A stretch of DNA of 64,000 bases from Glutamicibacter sp. JL.03c. GTDB lineage: Bacteria > Actinomycetota > Actinomycetes > Actinomycetales > Micrococcaceae. Location: assembly GCF_025854375.1 (NCBI RefSeq), contig NZ_CP107575.1:2852001-2916000 (forward strand), written 5' to 3'. The translations under genes and the position numbers were made by a program. The number at the start of each line of letters is the position of its first letter. Positions within the stretch are counted from its first letter, which is position 1. The notes under the pieces were generated by a model. That model saw only the letters and a program-made list of their open reading frames with translations, had not been told where the DNA came from and did no database searches. Of the stretch, positions 3,152 through 46,669 are shown piece by piece.

Positions 3152-3556
3152 CTACTGCTCCAACTCGTGGAAAAGACCACGCACTTTCTCGGCGATCTCA
3201 TCCCTGATGATATTCATGCGTTCGGCACCGGTGATGCCGTCTTCGCTTGGTTCGTAGGTGACCCAGCGTTCGACGTTGACCGACGGGCCCAGCTGCGGAT
3301 GGGCATCGGTGCCGAGGATGATGACCCGGTCGACTCCTTGGACGACCTTCGGGTCGATTCCTTTGGGCGTCCCGCCAGACATATCTGCCCCGGCCTGTGC
3401 CAGAGAGGCCACCGATTCCTGATTGATCCCCGAGCCCGGATTGGTCCCCGCGGAGTAGCTGGTGATCTTTCCGCCAGAAATATAGTCCATCAATGCGGCA
3501 GCCATCTGCGATTTGCCGGCATTGCGAGAGCAAATGAAAAGTACCGAGTTAGCCAT
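3152..3556 (-). CDS. ArsC-like low-molecular-weight phosphatase / arsenate reductase
   Basis: 134 aa protein of the low-molecular-weight tyrosine phosphatase fold. The N-terminal phosphate-binding loop is CSRNAGKSQMA (residues 9-19). The nucleophilic Cys is present, but the usual C-x5-R-S arginine is replaced by Lys, which I recall from some actinobacterial ArsC-like proteins. Such proteins are annotated as arsenate reductases working with mycothiol/mycoredoxin, or as protein phosphatases. The following gene is an MFS permease rather than ArsB or Acr3, so a role in arsenic resistance is plausible but unproven. A terminator hairpin separates it from the APC permease upstream. Confidence 0.75.
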   Translation of the reverse strand: MANSVLFICSRNAGKSQMAAALMDYISGGKITSYSAGTNPGSGINQESVASLAQAGADMSGGTPKGIDPKVVQGVDRVIILGTDAHPQLGPSVNVERWVTYEPSEDGITGAERMNIIRDEIAEKVRGLFHELEQ

Positions 3557-3564
3557 GAACCTAT

Positions 3565-3597
3565 TGAACCACCCGTGATGGGCTCACGGGTGGTTCA
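3565..3597 (-). terminator. Terminator hairpin after the APC permease
   Basis: Perfect 14-bp stem (3565-3578 with 3584-3597) and a 5-base loop, lying between the permease stop (3620) and the start of the arsC-like gene (3556). The run of T is weak, so efficiency is uncertain. Confidence 0.6.
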
Positions 3598-3619
3598 CGA
3601 CTGGGAAATCATCGACTGA

Positions 3620-5143
3620 TTACTTCAGCACCTTATAGGTCTTGATGGTTTCCCCCTTGAAGAAGGCAGGCTGGGTGATGCGCATGTAGATCATCACGGC
3701 GACGCCCAGGAGCAGTACTCCGACGCCCAGGATGAACACCATCCCGATGCCACCGATTTCAGATCCCGAGCCATAGCCTGGATCCAGCGAATCAACCGCC
3801 GTAACGAAAAACATCACCAGCAGGATGACACCTCCGAGAAGTGGTGCCAGGAATCTGAAGAAGAAGTTCCTGGCGCTGTTGAACAGCTCGCCACGGAAAT
3901 ACCAGACGCAGGCCAGGGCGGTCAGGCCGTAGTAGAAGCAAATCATGAGTCCCAAAGCTGTGATGGTATCCCACAGCGCGTTTTCCGAGAGCAACCGGGT
4001 CACCACGTAGAATCCCGCCGCTGCGCCGGCAGACACGACCGTCGCCACGGACGGGGACATGAACCTCGGGGAGATCTTCGCAAATCGGCTCGGCAAGGCC
4101 TTGTAGTATCCCATGGCCAACAAGGTGCGGGCTGGTGAAACCATCGTCGACTGCAGCGAGGCCGCTGAGGAGGACATGATCGCAAGCGACATCAGCATGG
4201 CCAGGGGTCCCATGACGGGTCCGGCCAGGACGGCGAAGATGGATTCCTGATTCTCCGGATTTCCCGCGCCGAGCCCGGTCGTCCCAACTCCCGCGAAATA
4301 CAGCACGGCGGTGGCAACGGCCAGATACAGGGCGATAATGATCAGCACGGTCCATGTCGAGCCACGACCGGGAACCTTGTTGGGATCTGTGGTTTCCTCA
4401 TTCATGGTCAGGGTCACGTCCCAGCCCCAGAAGACGAAAATTGACAAGGAGATGCCAGCGGCGAAGGACGTGAACGTCTCGACTCCCGCAGGGTTGAACA
4501 TCTCCCAGGTGATGGGGGTCGGATCATAAGGTGTGCTGGAGGTGAACGCCATGATGGAGAACAGCAGCAGGACGCCAACTTGGAAGCCGACCAGCACATA
4601 TTGGAAGATCTTCGTGGCGTTCATGCCGCGGTAGGAAATGTAGGCGGCGGCAGCGATGAACACGAGCGTAGTGGGGATGTTGATCCACAGGTTCTCGGTC
4701 AGCTCCGCGATCGCCGGCTGGCCGGTGACTTGGGCCAGCAAGATGTAGAAGAAGTCCACAGCGACGGCCGCCAGGTTGGAGAGCACGATCACCGTGGCGG
4801 CGATCAGTCCCCAGCCGCCCATCCATCCGATCATGGGGCCGAAAGCGCGGGTGGCCCAGGTGAACGAGGTTCCCGAATCGGGCATGGAATTGTTCAGCTC
4901 CCGGTAGCCAAGGGCCACGAGGAGCATGGGGATGAACCCGGCAATCAAGATGGCCGGGAGGCTGGTGCCGACCTCTGCCACGGTGGCGCCGAGCCCGGCG
5001 GTCAGGGTATAGGCCGGGGCGATGCAGGAGATGCCTATGACAATCAGCCCGAGAACACCGACGGTGCCCTTGGACAGGCCTTTTTCGTGCAACCCGCTTG
5101 CGGCGGCGGCAGGATGGGCATCCTGGCTCAGGTCGTGCGACAT
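3620..5143 (-). CDS. APC family amino acid/polyamine permease
   Basis: 507 aa polytopic membrane protein of the amino acid-polyamine-organocation superfamily. The first-helix signature is present (GTVGVLGLIVIGISCIAPAY, about residues 26-45), followed by about 12 hydrophobic helices. It is the third gene after a putrescine-oxidase-like enzyme and a universal stress protein on the same strand, so uptake of putrescine or a related amine is the most economical role. The 118-bp gap to the stress protein contains a hairpin (5237-5258), so expression may be separately tuned. Exact substrate is inferred from context only. Confidence 0.85.
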   Translation of the reverse strand: MSHDLSQDAHPAAAASGLHEKGLSKGTVGVLGLIVIGISCIAPAYTLTAGLGATVAEVGTSLPAILIAGFIPMLLVALGYRELNNSMPDSGTSFTWATRAFGPMIGWMGGWGLIAATVIVLSNLAAVAVDFFYILLAQVTGQPAIAELTENLWINIPTTLVFIAAAAYISYRGMNATKIFQYVLVGFQVGVLLLFSIMAFTSSTPYDPTPITWEMFNPAGVETFTSFAAGISLSIFVFWGWDVTLTMNEETTDPNKVPGRGSTWTVLIIIALYLAVATAVLYFAGVGTTGLGAGNPENQESIFAVLAGPVMGPLAMLMSLAIMSSSAASLQSTMVSPARTLLAMGYYKALPSRFAKISPRFMSPSVATVVSAGAAAGFYVVTRLLSENALWDTITALGLMICFYYGLTALACVWYFRGELFNSARNFFFRFLAPLLGGVILLVMFFVTAVDSLDPGYGSGSEIGGIGMVFILGVGVLLLGVAVMIYMRITQPAFFKGETIKTYKVLK

Positions 5144-41479: not shown

Positions 41480-44400
41480 CTATTCCATCAGGGCCAGGAA
41501 ATCGTCTGCACTCAGCGCCGGGGATTGGCCCGCCTGGGCTTCGTCCCCGAGGACATCATTGAACAGCTGTGTCTTCTTCGCTTGAAGCGCCAGCACCTTG
41601 GACTCAATGGTGTCCTTGGCAACCAGGCGATACACGTGGACGGGCTTTTCTTGGCCAATGCGGTGTGCACGGTCAATGGCCTGGGCTTCAGCGGCCGGAT
41701 TCCACCAGGGATCCAACAAGATGCAGTAGTCAGCTGCGGTGAGATTGATACCAAACCCGCCAGACTTCAGCGAAATGAAGAAGACGGGGAAGTCGCCATC
41801 GGTGAATCCCTCGATTAATTCCTTGCGCTTGGCGCCACTGGTCGAGCCGTCCAAGTAGCCATGAGCTATCCCAAGTTCTACGGCGATATCTTTCGCCTTG
41901 GATAGGAAGCTGGTGAACTGGCTGAAGACCAGAATCTTATGGCCCTCCGCCACGGCATCGACCATCAACTCACGCAGCAATTCCAGCTTGGCGCTAGCCC
42001 CGTCCCCTTCGCCCACCAGCGACGGATCCAATGCCAACTGGCGCAGCAAGGTCAATGACTGCAAGATCTTGAATCTGTTCGAATCAACGTTATCCACCAG
42101 GCCAAGGACCTCCTGACGCACACGCTGGAAACGGCGGTCGTAGGCTTTGCGGTGGTTCGCCTCCAGCTCCACTTCCAGGATCTGTTCGGTCTTGGCAGGA
42201 AGCTCTGGCACGACTTGCTCTTTGGTACGGCGAAGGACGAAGGGGCGCAAACGGCTTTTGAGCCGATCCAGCCGTTCTTTGTCTCCCTCAGAGATCAGCT
42301 TTTGGTAATTATCCTTGAACGCGTTTTGTCCGCCTAGCAAGCCTGGTGCCGCCAGCGAGACCAGAGCCCACAGTTCCATCAGGTTGTTTTCCATCGGAGT
42401 CCCGGTGACCACGAATTTGCATGGAACCGGCAACTGACGGGCCTGTTTGTACCCCTTGGACACGTGATTCTTCAGCTGCTGCGCTTCATCCATGATCATG
42501 ACTGAGAAGCCGGCCGCTTCGAATTCTTCATAGGCCAGCCGGAAAATCGTGTAGCTGGTTACGACCAGCTGGGCATCGCCCAGCTGGTCGGCTACAGTTT
42601 GCCCGGCCTTCTTGGTGGTAGAAGTAATGCCCCGTGTCTTGAGGTTGGGGGTGAAACGACGGGCTTCATTGATCCAGTTGCCCACCACGGATGTTGGTGC
42701 CAGGACAAGGAACTTCTGATCTGGATTCTCACGGCGAGCCTGTTCGAGACAAGCCAGCAACTGAACGGTCTTACCCAGTCCCATGTCATCAGCGAGGACC
42801 CCGCCCAATGAGTGTGTTCGCAGGAAGTTCAGCCATGCGAGGCCCTGTTCCTGATACGGTCGGAGATTCGCTTTGAAGGTCTCGGGGAGTTCCACCTGCT
42901 GGAGTTCTTCTCCGCGGGTGAGCTCATTCATGTTTTGCAGCCACTGGTTGTGCTGAGCTTCGATAATGCCCAGATCCAGCAGCTCCTGCCACCAATCGAT
43001 GCTCAGTTTGTGGACTCGAATAGTGCTGCCTTCGACCTTCCCCAATTCGCCGGCTTCATCAATCAACGTACGCAGCTGGGCGAAGTCCGCACCACTGATG
43101 GGAATTACTGTCATGTCTTCAAGCACCAGGTAGTCCAAGTGCAAGGTGAGCGCCGCGAGCAACAGCGCGAAAGGCACCTTGATGTCATCAATAGTGACCT
43201 CGACGGTCAGATCGAACCAGTCGCCGGTGTTCTCCCCCGCTTCGATGGAAACCGTTGCTGGGGAGTCGAGAATCCGATATTCAGGAAGCTGGTTGTGAGC
43301 TTCAATCAGCATGTCTGGATGTTCTTCCAGCAATGGCAAGATGTAGAGCATGAAGTCGATGGACTCGTCGATAGTCAGCTCTCGGTCAGCGTAGGTGCCG
43401 CGTGCCTCCAGTTGGCCCAGAACAGTGGCGTCGCCCAATTTGTCGTTGATCGAGGCGATGATTTCTTTCTCGACGTTTCGCTGTCGTGGTGCCTTGGCGG
43501 AGTACATCCACGAAAAATGCAGGCCGACCCCATCGGTGGTGCTGGACATGCGCAGGCGCAGCACGGGACGAGGCGGCTCCGGAATTTCATAAGACACGTC
43601 AGCACTCTTCAAAGGCGCCAGCTGACGGATTCTGTCCAAATGCGTTTCTTCAAACCGGCCAACGTCCGAGGAAGGTATGAACTGGACTCCAGAAGCGATG
43701 AATGCGCCGAGCTCGGCGGAAACAGGGTCAGCGAATTCGGCCAAGCCCAAGTCTCTTGACCCGGCCAGCGGCTGGGAAGAATATGCTACAAGGGTCGGTG
43801 GATTTCCGATGGGCAACAGATGCGTGTGCTCCGGTTCGGGCCCGCGAAGCATCCCCTCGACTGTCAGGCCATGTTCACCCTGTCGTAAGTCCACGTGTGC
43901 GTGGGCTAGTTTGTCGCTGAAATTCACTGGTGGCTTGGACGCGACTCCCCCATTAATAATGGCAACGCCGGCCTCTTTGAGGTCCTTGAGCGCGGCCAAA
44001 AGGTCTTTTCCGGGCAGTTCCATCAGGGAAATCCAGTCGGTGGTTTCCCAAAAGTGGCCGTACTTCACCTTTTCGGCGTGCTCGCGCAATCGGTTCAGCT
44101 CGACAACGGCCCGGCGTTGAGCGCGAGGAAAGCGCTCATCGAAAGCGACCGTTTTCCAGCTCACACCAGTCTGCACCCAAGGGCTCTTGGATCCCTGCTT
44201 CGCTGGCCTCGCTTGAAGAGACAGCACGTCATCCCCGCCGTACCGGGGTTCACTGACAACTTTCAAAATCAACCCCAGCGGCTCCTCAACAATTTCTGGG
44301 TCTTCGTCGGCAACGGGCAACAGCCGGTTGAGGTTTCGTTCCCACTGCGGAACCACATTGCGTTGCCATCCATAAGGGTCAGCTACACGGTCAGAAACAT

Positions 44401-44704
44401 GGAGCGGATCCTCTGAATCGCTGGCAATTTCCAAAAGCAATGCCGCGACTTCCGGGCAGGAATACTCTGAAGGATGCTCGGTGCAAAAACAATGGAACTC
44501 AACGCCATCGTTTCCAATGCGAAACCCCACCATGACTTGTTTGCCTCGAACTACCGCGGTAACTCTGGCGTTTCCGACTTCGACGTAGCGTTCAACATCT
44601 TGGACTTTGCCCGTCTCATAGAACAATTGCCCGATGCGAAATTCTTCCTCCGAGACGAGTGAGTCCAAGGAGGAAAGAGTCAGCTGGAATTCCATCATCG
44701 CCAT
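41480..44704 (-). CDS. SNF2/RapA-type DEAD-like helicase with degenerate SWIM zinc finger
   Basis: 1074 aa ATP-dependent DNA translocase. The N-terminal CFCTEHPSEYSCPEVAAL (about residues 72-89) aligns with a SWIM zinc finger (Cys-x-Cys ... Cys-x-His), but the His is replaced by Glu. A large bacterial SNF2-associated region follows. The helicase core has Walker A ADDMGLGKTVQ (about 641), DEAQ box MIMDEAQQLKNH (about 734), GTPMENNLMELWAL, and the C-terminal motif VI QAIDRAHRIGQEKPVHVYRLV (about 1010). Such proteins remodel nucleoprotein or recycle RNA polymerase. It is convergent with the MarR gene, 13 bp apart. Confidence 0.9.
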   Translation of the reverse strand: MAMMEFQLTLSSLDSLVSEEEFRIGQLFYETGKVQDVERYVEVGNARVTAVVRGKQVMVGFRIGNDGVEFHCFCTEHPSEYSCPEVAALLLEIASDSEDPLHVSDRVADPYGWQRNVVPQWERNLNRLLPVADEDPEIVEEPLGLILKVVSEPRYGGDDVLSLQARPAKQGSKSPWVQTGVSWKTVAFDERFPRAQRRAVVELNRLREHAEKVKYGHFWETTDWISLMELPGKDLLAALKDLKEAGVAIINGGVASKPPVNFSDKLAHAHVDLRQGEHGLTVEGMLRGPEPEHTHLLPIGNPPTLVAYSSQPLAGSRDLGLAEFADPVSAELGAFIASGVQFIPSSDVGRFEETHLDRIRQLAPLKSADVSYEIPEPPRPVLRLRMSSTTDGVGLHFSWMYSAKAPRQRNVEKEIIASINDKLGDATVLGQLEARGTYADRELTIDESIDFMLYILPLLEEHPDMLIEAHNQLPEYRILDSPATVSIEAGENTGDWFDLTVEVTIDDIKVPFALLLAALTLHLDYLVLEDMTVIPISGADFAQLRTLIDEAGELGKVEGSTIRVHKLSIDWWQELLDLGIIEAQHNQWLQNMNELTRGEELQQVELPETFKANLRPYQEQGLAWLNFLRTHSLGGVLADDMGLGKTVQLLACLEQARRENPDQKFLVLAPTSVVGNWINEARRFTPNLKTRGITSTTKKAGQTVADQLGDAQLVVTSYTIFRLAYEEFEAAGFSVMIMDEAQQLKNHVSKGYKQARQLPVPCKFVVTGTPMENNLMELWALVSLAAPGLLGGQNAFKDNYQKLISEGDKERLDRLKSRLRPFVLRRTKEQVVPELPAKTEQILEVELEANHRKAYDRRFQRVRQEVLGLVDNVDSNRFKILQSLTLLRQLALDPSLVGEGDGASAKLELLRELMVDAVAEGHKILVFSQFTSFLSKAKDIAVELGIAHGYLDGSTSGAKRKELIEGFTDGDFPVFFISLKSGGFGINLTAADYCILLDPWWNPAAEAQAIDRAHRIGQEKPVHVYRLVAKDTIESKVLALQAKKTQLFNDVLGDEAQAGQSPALSADDFLALME

Positions 44705-44832
44705 CCAAAAGTAGTGCGTTAGAGCGGATTGCTACCCTCCATCCTATCGATGCTCCGGGACAGGACAGTCATGACGAAACATTAAGTGGATACTTTACCG
44801 AGCCCGTTGCCGGCAGATAAAAAGGAACTACT

Positions 44833-44917
44833 GAATCACGAGTTCCACTCCTCAAGGCCCTGGCTGAGTGGACGGCAACCCTCGAGCCATTGTGCGGGGT
44901 GCCCCAGGTGAAGATTC
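44833..44917 (+). ncRNA. SAM-IV-type riboswitch aptamer upstream of osmC
   Basis: P1 is GAATC (44833-44837) with GATTC (44913-44917); P2 is TCCACTC (44844-44850) with GAGTGGA (44866-44872). Between them lie the S-adenosylmethionine core elements in consensus order: ACGAGT, CGGCAACCCTC (44873-44883), GGGGTGCCCC (44896-44905) and AGGTGAAGA. This order matches the actinobacterial SAM-IV family as I remember it, better than classic SAM-I. It ends 66 bp ahead of the OsmC start. Ligand binding is inferred from the motif. Confidence 0.82.
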
Positions 44918-44922
44918 GACGC

Positions 44923-44983
44923 ATCTTGAAATCCAAGATCGTAAACGATGGCGCCCCCTGCGCCAGAAAGGGGATGACTCCCC
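44923..44983 (+). promoter_or_regulatory. Riboswitch expression platform with sequestered ribosome site
   Basis: Three hairpins follow the aptamer: ATCTTG/CAAGAT (44923-44939), TGGCGC-CCCCT-GCGCCA (44949-44965) and GGGGA-TGAC-TCCCC (44970-44983). The last contains the ribosome site AGGGG (44969-44973) and ends directly before the ATG. The CCCCT loop at 44955-44959 is also complementary to AGGGG, giving a second way to hide it. This suggests translational rather than transcriptional control. Confidence 0.6.
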
Positions 44984-45535
44984 ATGCCTCACGCAACAGC
45001 AAAACCCTCAGTGGCCGAAGACCGATCACAGCGGCTCCAAGAGGCAGGTGCTGGTTGGGGCGAACGGATCTCCGCCGCACCGCACAGCGCCGCGTTGACC
45101 TTTACCGTTCAGGGCGAAGGCTTTGATTCCGTTGCCAGCAATATCCGTGCCGGCAAGCATACCTTTACCGTGGATGAACCGGCAGCTCTCGGTGGCAATG
45201 ATGTCGCCGCCAGTCCGGTTGAATACGCCTTGGCAGCACTGGTGTCCTGCCAGGTGGTGGTTTATCGACTTTACGCAGAGAACCTGGGCATCCAAGTTGA
45301 TGACGTGCAAATCACGGCAGATGGGCAGCTCGACGTCCGCGGGCTCTTCGGCATTGATGCCTCCATCCGCCCCGGTTTCTCGTCGGTGGATCTGAAAGTG
45401 CAGATTGCCGGTCCCGAGTCCACCGAACGCTACGAGGAACTACGCCAGGCAGTGGATGCCCACTGCCCAGTCTTGGACCTCTTTGCCAACCCGGTGCCGG
45501 TGACCACTTCGGTGCAGGTTGTCCAAAGCAACTAG
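44984..45535 (+). CDS. OsmC family protein
   Basis: 183 aa OsmC/Ohr-fold protein. The N-terminal strand region (LTFTVQGEGFDSV), TFTVDEPAALGGNDVAASPVEYALAALVSCQVVVYRLYAE (about 60-100, containing the first redox Cys in VSCQ) and VDAHCPVLDLFANPVPV (second Cys, about 161) match the family's two-cysteine active site. These reduce organic hydroperoxides or act on sulfur compounds. Being under a SAM-IV-type riboswitch points to a role in sulfur or methionine metabolism in this organism. A 23-bp terminator follows. Confidence 0.85.
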   Translation: MPHATAKPSVAEDRSQRLQEAGAGWGERISAAPHSAALTFTVQGEGFDSVASNIRAGKHTFTVDEPAALGGNDVAASPVEYALAALVSCQVVVYRLYAENLGIQVDDVQITADGQLDVRGLFGIDASIRPGFSSVDLKVQIAGPESTERYEELRQAVDAHCPVLDLFANPVPVTTSVQVVQSN

Positions 45536-45550
45536 CCCGAGCCGAAGGCG

Positions 45551-45598
45551 CGATGAACTGTGGGGGCCACTGATTTCAGTGGCCCCCACAGTTCATCG
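45551..45598. terminator. Long perfect convergent terminator
   Basis: Perfect 23-bp stem (45551-45573 with 45576-45598) closing on a 2-base TT apex, so the real loop opens a few pairs. It sits between the convergent OsmC gene and the idonate dehydrogenase gene, 15 bp and 12 bp away. Confidence 0.8.
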
Positions 45599-45610
45599 TC
45601 CGGCTGAGGA

Positions 45611-46669
45611 TTATTGCTGTTCCCTGAAGTTGAGCAGTACCTTGCCTGAAGTCGAGGAATCCTTGGCTGTTTCAAAGGCTACAAGGCCTTCGGCCACGGG
45701 GAACTCGTGGGTGACGGCCGCACCAATTTGCAAGGAGCCATCGGCCAGAGCTTCGAGCACCTGATCGATCTCGCCGTTGAATCGGAAGGAGCCGACGAGT
45801 TCCAGCTCACGGGTGATGGCCAGGGAAATCAACGCGGGCTGCTCGCCTGTGGGCAGCAGTCCAACCATGACGACTCGGCCGCCGCGCACCGCACCTCTGA
45901 CCGCTGATGCCAAGCCGCGGTAGTTGCCACTGGCCTCGATCACCACATCCGCGTTGACCTCGGCGATGGCTTCCTGGTCATCGGCGCGCAAGGTGGAGGT
46001 GGCGCCCAGTTCCCGGGCGATAGCCAATGGCTTCTCATGCATATCCACCGCGATGATCTCGCTGGCACCGCCACGCTTGAGTACTGCCACGGCAAGCGCG
46101 CCGATCGGGCCAGCGCCGATCACCAGAGCCTTCTTGCCTGAGACATCGCCCGCGCGCGAGACCGCATGCCACGCCACCGCTGCGGGTTCGGCCAGCGCGG
46201 CATCGCGCAGCGAGAGCCCCTCGGGCAGTTCGCGCAGCATGCGCGTTGGCAGGTTCACTTCACGAGCGAAGGCGCCTTCGGTATGCGGGTAGCGGGCGGC
46301 TGAGCCAAGGTAGGTGCAACCGGGAGAAAGGTTCGGGCGATCGGCCGGATATGGTTCGCCGGTATCCCCGGGCGTTGCCGGGTGCACCGCGATCTTGGTT
46401 CCGGCTGCTGGTCCGCTGCCATCGACGGCGGCTTCGATGACGGTTCCCACGATCTCGTGTCCGAGAATCATCGGGGCTTTGAGGATGGATTCCCCGGCGG
46501 CGCCGTGGCTCCAGTAGTGCAGATCCGACCCGCAGATGCCGCCGTAGGCGATGGCGATGCGGGCCTGGTCGGGCTTCGGTGCTGGCAGCTCGATCTGTTC
46601 GATGCGCAGGTCGCCGGCGGCGTGCGCGACCACGGCCAGGGTCGTGGAAGAAAGGGTGCTAGACGACAA
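45611..46669 (-). CDS. L-idonate 5-dehydrogenase-like zinc alcohol dehydrogenase
   Basis: 352 aa medium-chain dehydrogenase. The catalytic zinc site shows YGGICGSDLHYW (Cys, about 45) and MILGHEIVGTVIE (His-Glu, about 70). The structural-zinc region is atypical (HPATPGDTGEPYPADRPNLSPGCTY), lacking the four-Cys cluster, as in idonate dehydrogenases. The NAD(P) motif is KALVIGAGPIGALAVAVLK (about 180). It oxidises L-idonate to 5-keto-D-gluconate, which the SDR encoded just upstream can reduce to gluconate. The TTG start overlaps the SDR stop, with GGAGG upstream. Confidence 0.85.
   Translation of the reverse strand: MSSSTLSSTTLAVVAHAAGDLRIEQIELPAPKPDQARIAIAYGGICGSDLHYWSHGAAGESILKAPMILGHEIVGTVIEAAVDGSGPAAGTKIAVHPATPGDTGEPYPADRPNLSPGCTYLGSAARYPHTEGAFAREVNLPTRMLRELPEGLSLRDAALAEPAAVAWHAVSRAGDVSGKKALVIGAGPIGALAVAVLKRGGASEIIAVDMHEKPLAIARELGATSTLRADDQEAIAEVNADVVIEASGNYRGLASAVRGAVRGGRVVMVGLLPTGEQPALISLAITRELELVGSFRFNGEIDQVLEALADGSLQIGAAVTHEFPVAEGLVAFETAKDSSTSGKVLLNFREQQ

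Follow-up and report, generated by a model that had tools for sequence, protein, structure and literature searches.

A SAM-IV riboswitch precedes an OsmC-family gene in Glutamicibacter and other Micrococcaceae

Introduction

SAM-IV riboswitches were reportedly first described by Weinberg et al. in 2008. According to the available portion of PMC6890682, the class is defined by two pseudoknots, PK-1, which involves the loop of the P2 stem, and PK-2, which involves the 3' tail, and the residues modelled around SAM in the cryo-EM structure are 2-4, 7-8, 63-65 and 77. Genes for OsmC proteins have been placed under SAM riboswitches before. In Pelagibacter, as stated in the accessible part of PMC5069961, osmC lies downstream of SAM riboswitches, its mRNA is elevated 50-fold in sulfur-limited exponential cells, and the protein is called structurally similar to E. 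coli OsmC. The linkage of an osmC gene to a SAM riboswitch is thus as such already published.

Riboswitches are of interest since they are good indicators of the pathway to which a vaguely annotated gene truly belongs. OsmC proteins are expected to have two cysteines, and members of the family are known peroxidases. Here, we analyse a 64-kb window of the complete 3.59-Mb genome of Glutamicibacter sp. JL.03c (G000:C1:2852001-2916000; "the window" refers to this whole stretch of DNA), in which the leader of an OsmC gene is a genuine SAM-IV riboswitch whose target we have not found described for this class. No description of SAM-IV in front of an OsmC gene was found in the open-licence literature searched, and the portions seen of PMC5069961, PMC2704228 and PMC4448311 show no such arrangement.

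Results

The leader is located between a divergently oriented gene for an SNF2-type helicase and the OsmC gene (Table 1). A first-pass annotation of the sequence had proposed a SAM-IV-type riboswitch at this site, and the Rfam covariance model bears this out with a full-length, uncut match well above the gathering score of 38 bits (E = 1.7e-10 in the window and 2.3e-12 in a search of the whole genome). At gathering thresholds this was the single Rfam match of the 64 kb, while a search of positions 44000-46000 at lax thresholds returned 18 other matches, each of them under its own gathering score. Assignment to the SAM-I class (RF00162) was rejected since SAM-I was not the best match and RF00634 was retained over overlapping clan members under the clan-overlap rule.

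Table 1. Features of the OsmC locus and of related loci. Positions refer to the window unless a genome coordinate or a locus list is given.
Feature	Position	Strand	Remarks
SNF2-type helicase gene	41480-44704	minus	divergent from the OsmC gene
SAM-IV aptamer (RF00634, model 1-116)	44834-44953	+	cmscan, 70.6 bits
P1, 5' strand AAUC	44834-44837	+	pairs with GAUU at 44913-44916; four standard pairs
P2a/P2b stem with PK-1 loop	44842-44873	+
PK-1	44859-44863 with 44904-44908	+	CCUGG/CCAGG
P3	44874-44903	+	44874-44876/44901-44903 and 44879-44881/44897-44899; holds the GGCAACC and GGUGC core
PK-2, 5' strand GCCAUUGU	44886-44893	+	8-bp helix with ACGAUGGC at 44945-44952
3' hairpin of the aptamer	44919-44942	+	from Rfam alignment and sequence; outside the pair counts
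Hairpin H1, UGGCGC-CCCCU-GCGCCA	44949-44965	+	its 5' side shares bases with the 3' strand of PK-2
Shine-Dalgarno (SD) hairpin, GGGGA-UGAC-UCCCC	44970-44983	+	encloses the Shine-Dalgarno sequence and extends to the start codon
OsmC gene	44984-45535	+	183 aa; ATG at 44984
Perfect 23-bp inverted repeat	45551-45598	unassigned	between the OsmC and dehydrogenase genes
Zinc-dependent dehydrogenase gene	45611-46669		convergent with the OsmC gene
Diverged SAM-IV copies	G000:C1:633343-633455 and 275422-275566	both minus	each precedes a small ORF
OsmC-MetY loci	L113, L114, L121, L122, L124, L125, L126, L128, L129, L131, L138

The two core elements were found where they had been annotated, CGGCAACCCTC at 44873-44883 and GGGGTGCCCC at 44896-44905, and this core is the same as in the leaders of metY genes. 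Both of the pseudoknots that define the class are present, and the 3' hairpin corresponds to P5 in the part of the published structure that is available (PMC6890682). When the residues reported around SAM in that part are transferred to the OsmC leader, positions 2-4, 7-8, 63-65 and 77 read AUC, GA, UGC and A, respectively, so that positions 3-4, 7-8, 63-65 and 77 are kept. Among these residues, the OsmC leader departs from that of metY in this genome solely at position 2, where G is replaced by A and the P1 partner is changed to U. The Rfam consensus also has G at this position, while the P1 strands AAUC/GAUU are shared with the SAM-IV leaders of flavin reductase genes.

To quantify the support for the helices, we examined 39 distinct OsmC leaders. 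For P1, P2, P3 and PK-1 combined, 99.1% of the pairs were of the standard type and nine pairs had changed on both sides: seven of the ten in P2a/P2b, one of the six in P3 (in which 98.7% of the cells were paired) and one of the five in PK-1. None of 500 shuffles reached the observed value for pairing or for double changes, and pairing fell to 31-53% when the partners were shifted by 1-3 columns. P1 and four of the five PK-1 pairs were invariant and are therefore uninformative either way. The conservation in orthologous leaders on which the first-pass annotation had staked its P1 and P2 stems thus comes with compensatory changes for P2, whereas for P1 it consists of four standard pairs that do not vary. 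A counterpart to PK-2 was identified in all 41 rows, ranging from CGCCAUUGU/GCAAUGGCG to CUCU/AGAG and varying with compensation. The mean best helix of 25 non-redundant loop/tail pairs was 7.2, compared to 4.73 in 1000 loop shuffles (sd 0.23, maximum 5.56).

We also surveyed the distribution of the leader among relatives. A search of 18 genomes of the genus yielded some OsmC match in 16, of which 14 represented orthologues with at least 64% identity while the remaining matches were either distant (26-27%) or, in one case, a fragment of 36 residues. In all 14 genomes with an orthologue, 29-41 nt separated the end of SAM-IV from the beginning of the OsmC match, the distance to the OsmC start being 30 nt in the genome studied here, and four genomes of the genus that have no OsmC orthologue still keep a metY-type SAM-IV. 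The fragment (G003:C1:2698263-2698370) is 58% identical to the C-terminal part of OsmC, is located in a genome that does not contain the full gene, and may be what remains of a copy that was lost.

A draw of 197 Micrococcaceae genomes contained 42 with an OsmC match, and SAM-IV was identified in front of 35 of 41 orthologues, a number that excludes a 40% identical relative that does not have SAM-IV (G024). Together with five further genomes of the genus, SAM-IV precedes the OsmC gene in 40 of the 46 Micrococcaceae genomes that carry an orthologue. The leader is thus common among the orthologues, a matter that the first-pass annotation had put forward for a survey in related actinobacteria. The six orthologues at which SAM-IV was absent belong to two genera, L075, L080 and L089 to one and L081, L082 and L085 to another, in which three sampled members retain it.

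Beyond the family, SAM-IV was absent from all eight orthologues at other Micrococcales loci (L100, L102, L105, L108, L109, L111, L139 and L140) and from nine additional loci (L141-L149). Of the 46 named loci, 13 contained it. For 21 loci of the Mycobacteriales/Pseudonocardiales type (L113-L132 and L138) we found no SAM-IV with R1, a covariance model inferred from 22 metY and flavin reductase leaders, and Rfam searches of 15 of these yielded no SAM-IV and one SAM-I. Although no OsmC leaders were included in R1, the model detects the OsmC-leader aptamers; its RNAalifold structure does not contain P1 and it was used for detection alone. R1 was run on 98 loci and could miss diverged aptamers since it was built from one genus. 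Rfam was run on 42 of these 98 loci, including family loci missed by a first pattern search, and the others were judged by R1 alone.

In a tree inferred from 84 OsmC proteins, from which we omitted 14 duplicates, a row whose matched stretch contained a stop, and matches with E above 1e-20, the riboswitch label changed 7 times, as compared to a mean of 28.3 times with shuffled labels. This branch of OsmC is uncommon, with matches at E 1e-25 in 12 of 394 genomes of a class-wide draw, and its closest members among the named loci (87-90% identity) are labelled Glutamicibacter and Arthrobacter. One locus labelled Sporosarcina (L103, NZ_JADHDY010000003.1) contains a Micrococcaceae-like OsmC gene with SAM-IV; because of its G+C content of 65% and its grouping with a Micrococcaceae sequence in the tree, it is taken as likely contamination of the Sporosarcina assembly.

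Judged from the gene order, OsmC appears to be the sole gene behind the leader, as the next gene is convergent. The inverted repeat between the two genes may possibly serve as a terminator for both; it contains no T-tract and the terminator scan made no call there. Rfam matches of the same repeat to animal and plant microRNAs were below threshold. The description of OsmC as the sole target in the first-pass annotation is valid for the locus but not for the genome, which contains five SAM-IV copies over the cut-off. One of these, at 109 bits, precedes metY-metX, for which MetY and MetX are each above an NCBIfam cut-off, and another, at 85.8 bits, precedes a gene for a flavin reductase (PF01613), the OsmC copy being the lowest of these three canonical copies.

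The other two copies are diverged, with the core pair CACCAACC..GGUGGUUCGGAUGA in place of CGGCAACC..GGUGCCCCGGGUGA and compensating changes in P3 and PK-1. The small ORFs behind them, of 88 and 95 aa, had no match in Pfam or NCBIfam. Relatives of the 88-aa protein were identified in 20 of 100 genomes of the family, and SAM-IV was located just upstream in all eight cases submitted to Rfam and, by coordinates, in five genomes of the genus, one of which is among the eight (loci examined: L011, L012 and L153-L164). The 88-aa proteins look like a small protein family under SAM control.

The OsmC protein itself matched PF02566 with 70.9 bits (gathering score 27.5, E = 1.3e-19), and its fold assignment is taken from Pfam. 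The two cysteines, C89 and C161, were conserved without exception in the 21 relatives aligned, for which reason thiol chemistry is likely. A match to the NCBIfam model OsmC_like_Se was below the cut-off (76.9 versus 95 bits), and no named subfamily thus fits this protein.

To examine the links to sulfur metabolism further, we searched the 98 OsmC loci with the MetY and flavin reductase sequences of the genome using tblastn. In 11 of the 46 named loci, a MetY gene with the same orientation followed downstream, no further than 200 nt from the OsmC match: nine from Nocardia, one from Rhodococcus yunnanensis and one from Kutzneria viridogrisea, in which the two reading frames overlap. All three of the MetY proteins checked from these 11 loci were over the TIGR01326 cut-off. 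Identity of the neighbouring MetY proteins to the query was 64-67% in Nocardia and 49-50% in Rhodococcus yunnanensis and Kutzneria, suggesting that OsmC and MetY may have become neighbours on more than one occasion. Rfam searches of all 11 loci identified no SAM riboswitch, and no adjoining MetY gene was found within the flanks (1.5 kb for most) of the OsmC loci that carry SAM-IV. The flavin reductase was not a neighbour of OsmC at any of the 98 loci.

A tblastn search of plasmid records yielded two OsmC relatives with more than 50% identity, L150 and L151, on large plasmid records of Tsukamurella and Nocardia farcinica, with no MetY gene nearby, and a Marinovum record showed no sulfur gene as a neighbour. 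The single SAM-I aptamer mentioned above (positions 3527-3621 of locus L130, 50.8 bits) is located upstream of OsmC in Tomitella cavernea. The same locus contains a cobalamin riboswitch (736-919) further upstream. The sulfur role that had been suggested for this branch of OsmC from its leader thereby gains indirect support from the OsmC-MetY pairs, from the SAM-I aptamer in Tomitella and from what is reported for Pelagibacter in the accessible part of PMC5069961.

Finally, we modelled the RNA between the aptamer and the start codon. The 5' strand of hairpin H1 overlaps the 3' strand of PK-2, and the two structures would therefore exclude each other. H1 was predicted to pair at least two of the last four PK-2 bases with p of at least 0.9 in all 38 distinct tails. 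The mean pairing of the PK-2 3' strand was 0.95 in the genus, compared to 0.68 in shuffled tails, and 0.86 compared to 0.66 elsewhere. In 5 of the 38 tails, no more than 5 of 100 shuffles matched the real tail, and these predictions give H1 modest support above shuffled tails. A general switch by mutual exclusion of PK-2 and H1 is plausible in these models.

The hairpin that had been annotated as hiding the ribosome-binding site was predicted at the expected place and in all 14 leaders of the genus, including the form AAGGGG/CCUCUU in L047. It was not conserved elsewhere, the 27 leaders from other genera having no common hairpin, and the SD was paired in both modelled states; as a general switch, the SD hairpin was accordingly rejected. 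The annotation had also called attention to pairing of a CCCCT loop (44955-44959) with AGGGG (44969-44973). This pairing can form, and a loop with at least CCCT was present in 13 of the 14 leaders of the genus, but L054 has UUUUUCU instead and there was no consistent effect on the SD outside the genus, which speaks against a universal anti-SD function. When the PK-2 strand was blocked in L051, the SD preferred to pair with CCCUU in the manner proposed, while four of the five folds from the genus that were displayed for the PK-2 state kept the local SD hairpin or a variant of it.

To quantify these effects, we calculated SD opening energies from tails folded alone. In the genus, the SD was computed to require 5.3-9.7 kcal/mol for opening without PK-2, and this cost increased by 0.6-3.5 kcal/mol in all 14 leaders when the PK-2 strand was blocked. 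The predicted effect of PK-2 is thus modest since the SD is already costly to open in its absence. For the 27 leaders from other genera, blocking of the PK-2 strand yielded a higher cost in 10, a lower cost in 11 and a value within 0.2 in 6. The z-scores for tail stability relative to shuffled tails were -1.7 to -3.7 in the genus and -1.9 to +0.7 in 24 distinct tails outside of it, where the tails were no more stable than the shuffled ones. The modelled folds weakly support SAM-dependent repression in the genus and do not support it elsewhere.

Discussion

We consider it quite probable that the SAM-IV riboswitch represses the OsmC gene through PK-2 and H1 and, jointly, that the protein serves the assimilation of sulfur into homocysteine and methionine. 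Abundant S-adenosylmethionine would stabilise the aptamer together with PK-2, PK-2 would withdraw the strand ACGAUGGC from the downstream hairpin H1, and the RNA beside the ribosome-binding site would be rearranged such that OsmC synthesis is lowered. When SAM is scarce, H1 would form instead and OsmC would be made along with metY-metX and the flavin reductase. Such an OFF polarity is expected from the known behaviour of SAM riboswitches. OsmC, a putative two-cysteine thiol protein, would then act in the route to homocysteine and methionine. Its most likely contribution would be to reduce a peroxide, disulfide or persulfide formed at the MetY step or close to it.

The low rank of the OsmC copy among the three canonical copies might be taken to indicate a chance match or a decayed riboswitch, but the score itself, the conserved position in front of the orthologues and the covariation speak strongly against a chance match, and we give this explanation practically no credence. 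It is also very improbable that the leader binds a related ligand, such as S-adenosylhomocysteine, or that it senses SAM with another polarity. Such a reading could invoke the A at position 2 of P1, yet the core is as in the metY leaders, the other SAM-pocket residues listed in the available portion of PMC6890682 are kept, and the flavin reductase leaders have the same P1. The level of control is a separate issue. Outside the genus, opening of the SD was computed to cost less than 4 kcal/mol in 24 of the 27 leaders without PK-2, which indicates that the SD is weakly sequestered and gives no clear sign of a translational switch in those genera. Competition between PK-2 and H1 could act on transcription, through Rho-dependent or other termination. 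However, no T-tract follows H1, the start codon is located only a short distance past the aptamer, and on the + strand the scan of positions 44600-45650 detected nothing that resembled a terminator. The scan result points to translation more than to intrinsic termination and leaves a Rho-dependent route. We therefore regard control at the level of transcription as unlikely.

The function of the protein is where the alternatives come closest to the data. It is a serious possibility, if somewhat short of an even chance, that the riboswitch is real but that OsmC is a general peroxidase, co-induced during sulfur starvation and with no direct role in methionine synthesis; the peroxide could for example stem from the reduced flavin of the SAM-IV-controlled flavin reductase, if used in desulfonation. 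This would agree with the control of the flavin reductase gene by SAM-IV in the same genome, with the retention of both conserved cysteines, with the peroxidases known from the OsmC family and with the resemblance of the Pelagibacter protein to E. coli OsmC as described in the part of PMC5069961 available. It is less easily reconciled with the direct pairing of OsmC with MetY in Nocardia, Rhodococcus and Kutzneria, or with the finding that the flavin reductase adjoins OsmC at none of the loci searched. The position of the SAM-IV riboswitch in front of the OsmC gene in Glutamicibacter and many relatives suggests that this branch of OsmC acts in sulfur or methionine metabolism and not in general stress defence alone. 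At the other extreme, OsmC could be a dedicated enzyme of direct sulfhydrylation that has MetY as its redox partner; it might, for instance, reduce a persulfide, polysulfide or disulfide and so provide homocysteine synthesis with sulfide or a free thiol. The gene would then have been recruited repeatedly, to SAM-IV in Micrococcaceae, to SAM-I in Tomitella, to SAM-II or SAM-V in Pelagibacter, or to a position beside MetY. We offer this more specific proposal tentatively and think it somewhat doubtful.

Under the broader interpretation of a SAM-repressed gene for sulfur assimilation, the SAM sensor, the OsmC-MetY pairs and the Pelagibacter data turn this branch of OsmC from a generic stress protein into a candidate enzyme of sulfur metabolism. 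They also outline a concrete regulon in Glutamicibacter and its relatives, consisting of metYX, the flavin reductase, OsmC and small proteins that have no annotation.

In comparison with known systems, the OsmC leader shares P1-P3, the two pseudoknots, the 3' hairpin, the core and the 5'-leader position with the published SAM-IV riboswitch (RF00634; available portion of PMC6890682). The published target in the part of PMC3774663 seen is an O-acetylhomoserine sulfhydrylase, MAV_4315 of M. avium, whereas here it is what appears to be a lone OsmC gene, tied to sulfur metabolism by association. The bhmT-osmC arrangement of Candidatus Pelagibacter ubique likewise places an OsmC gene behind a SAM riboswitch and its expression is raised under sulfur limitation, but the riboswitches there are of the SAM-II and SAM-V classes and osmC is, by locus number, located beside bhmT (accessible part of PMC5069961). 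Tomitella cavernea also has a SAM aptamer upstream of an OsmC gene, the product of which is 51% identical, but this aptamer is a SAM-I (RF00162) whose distance to the likely start is about 275 nt, and it is a single case. With the OsmC/Ohr peroxidase family (PF02566) the protein shares the fold family and the two invariant cysteines, while it differs in that no named subfamily accommodates it and in that its branch is linked to MetY in other genera.
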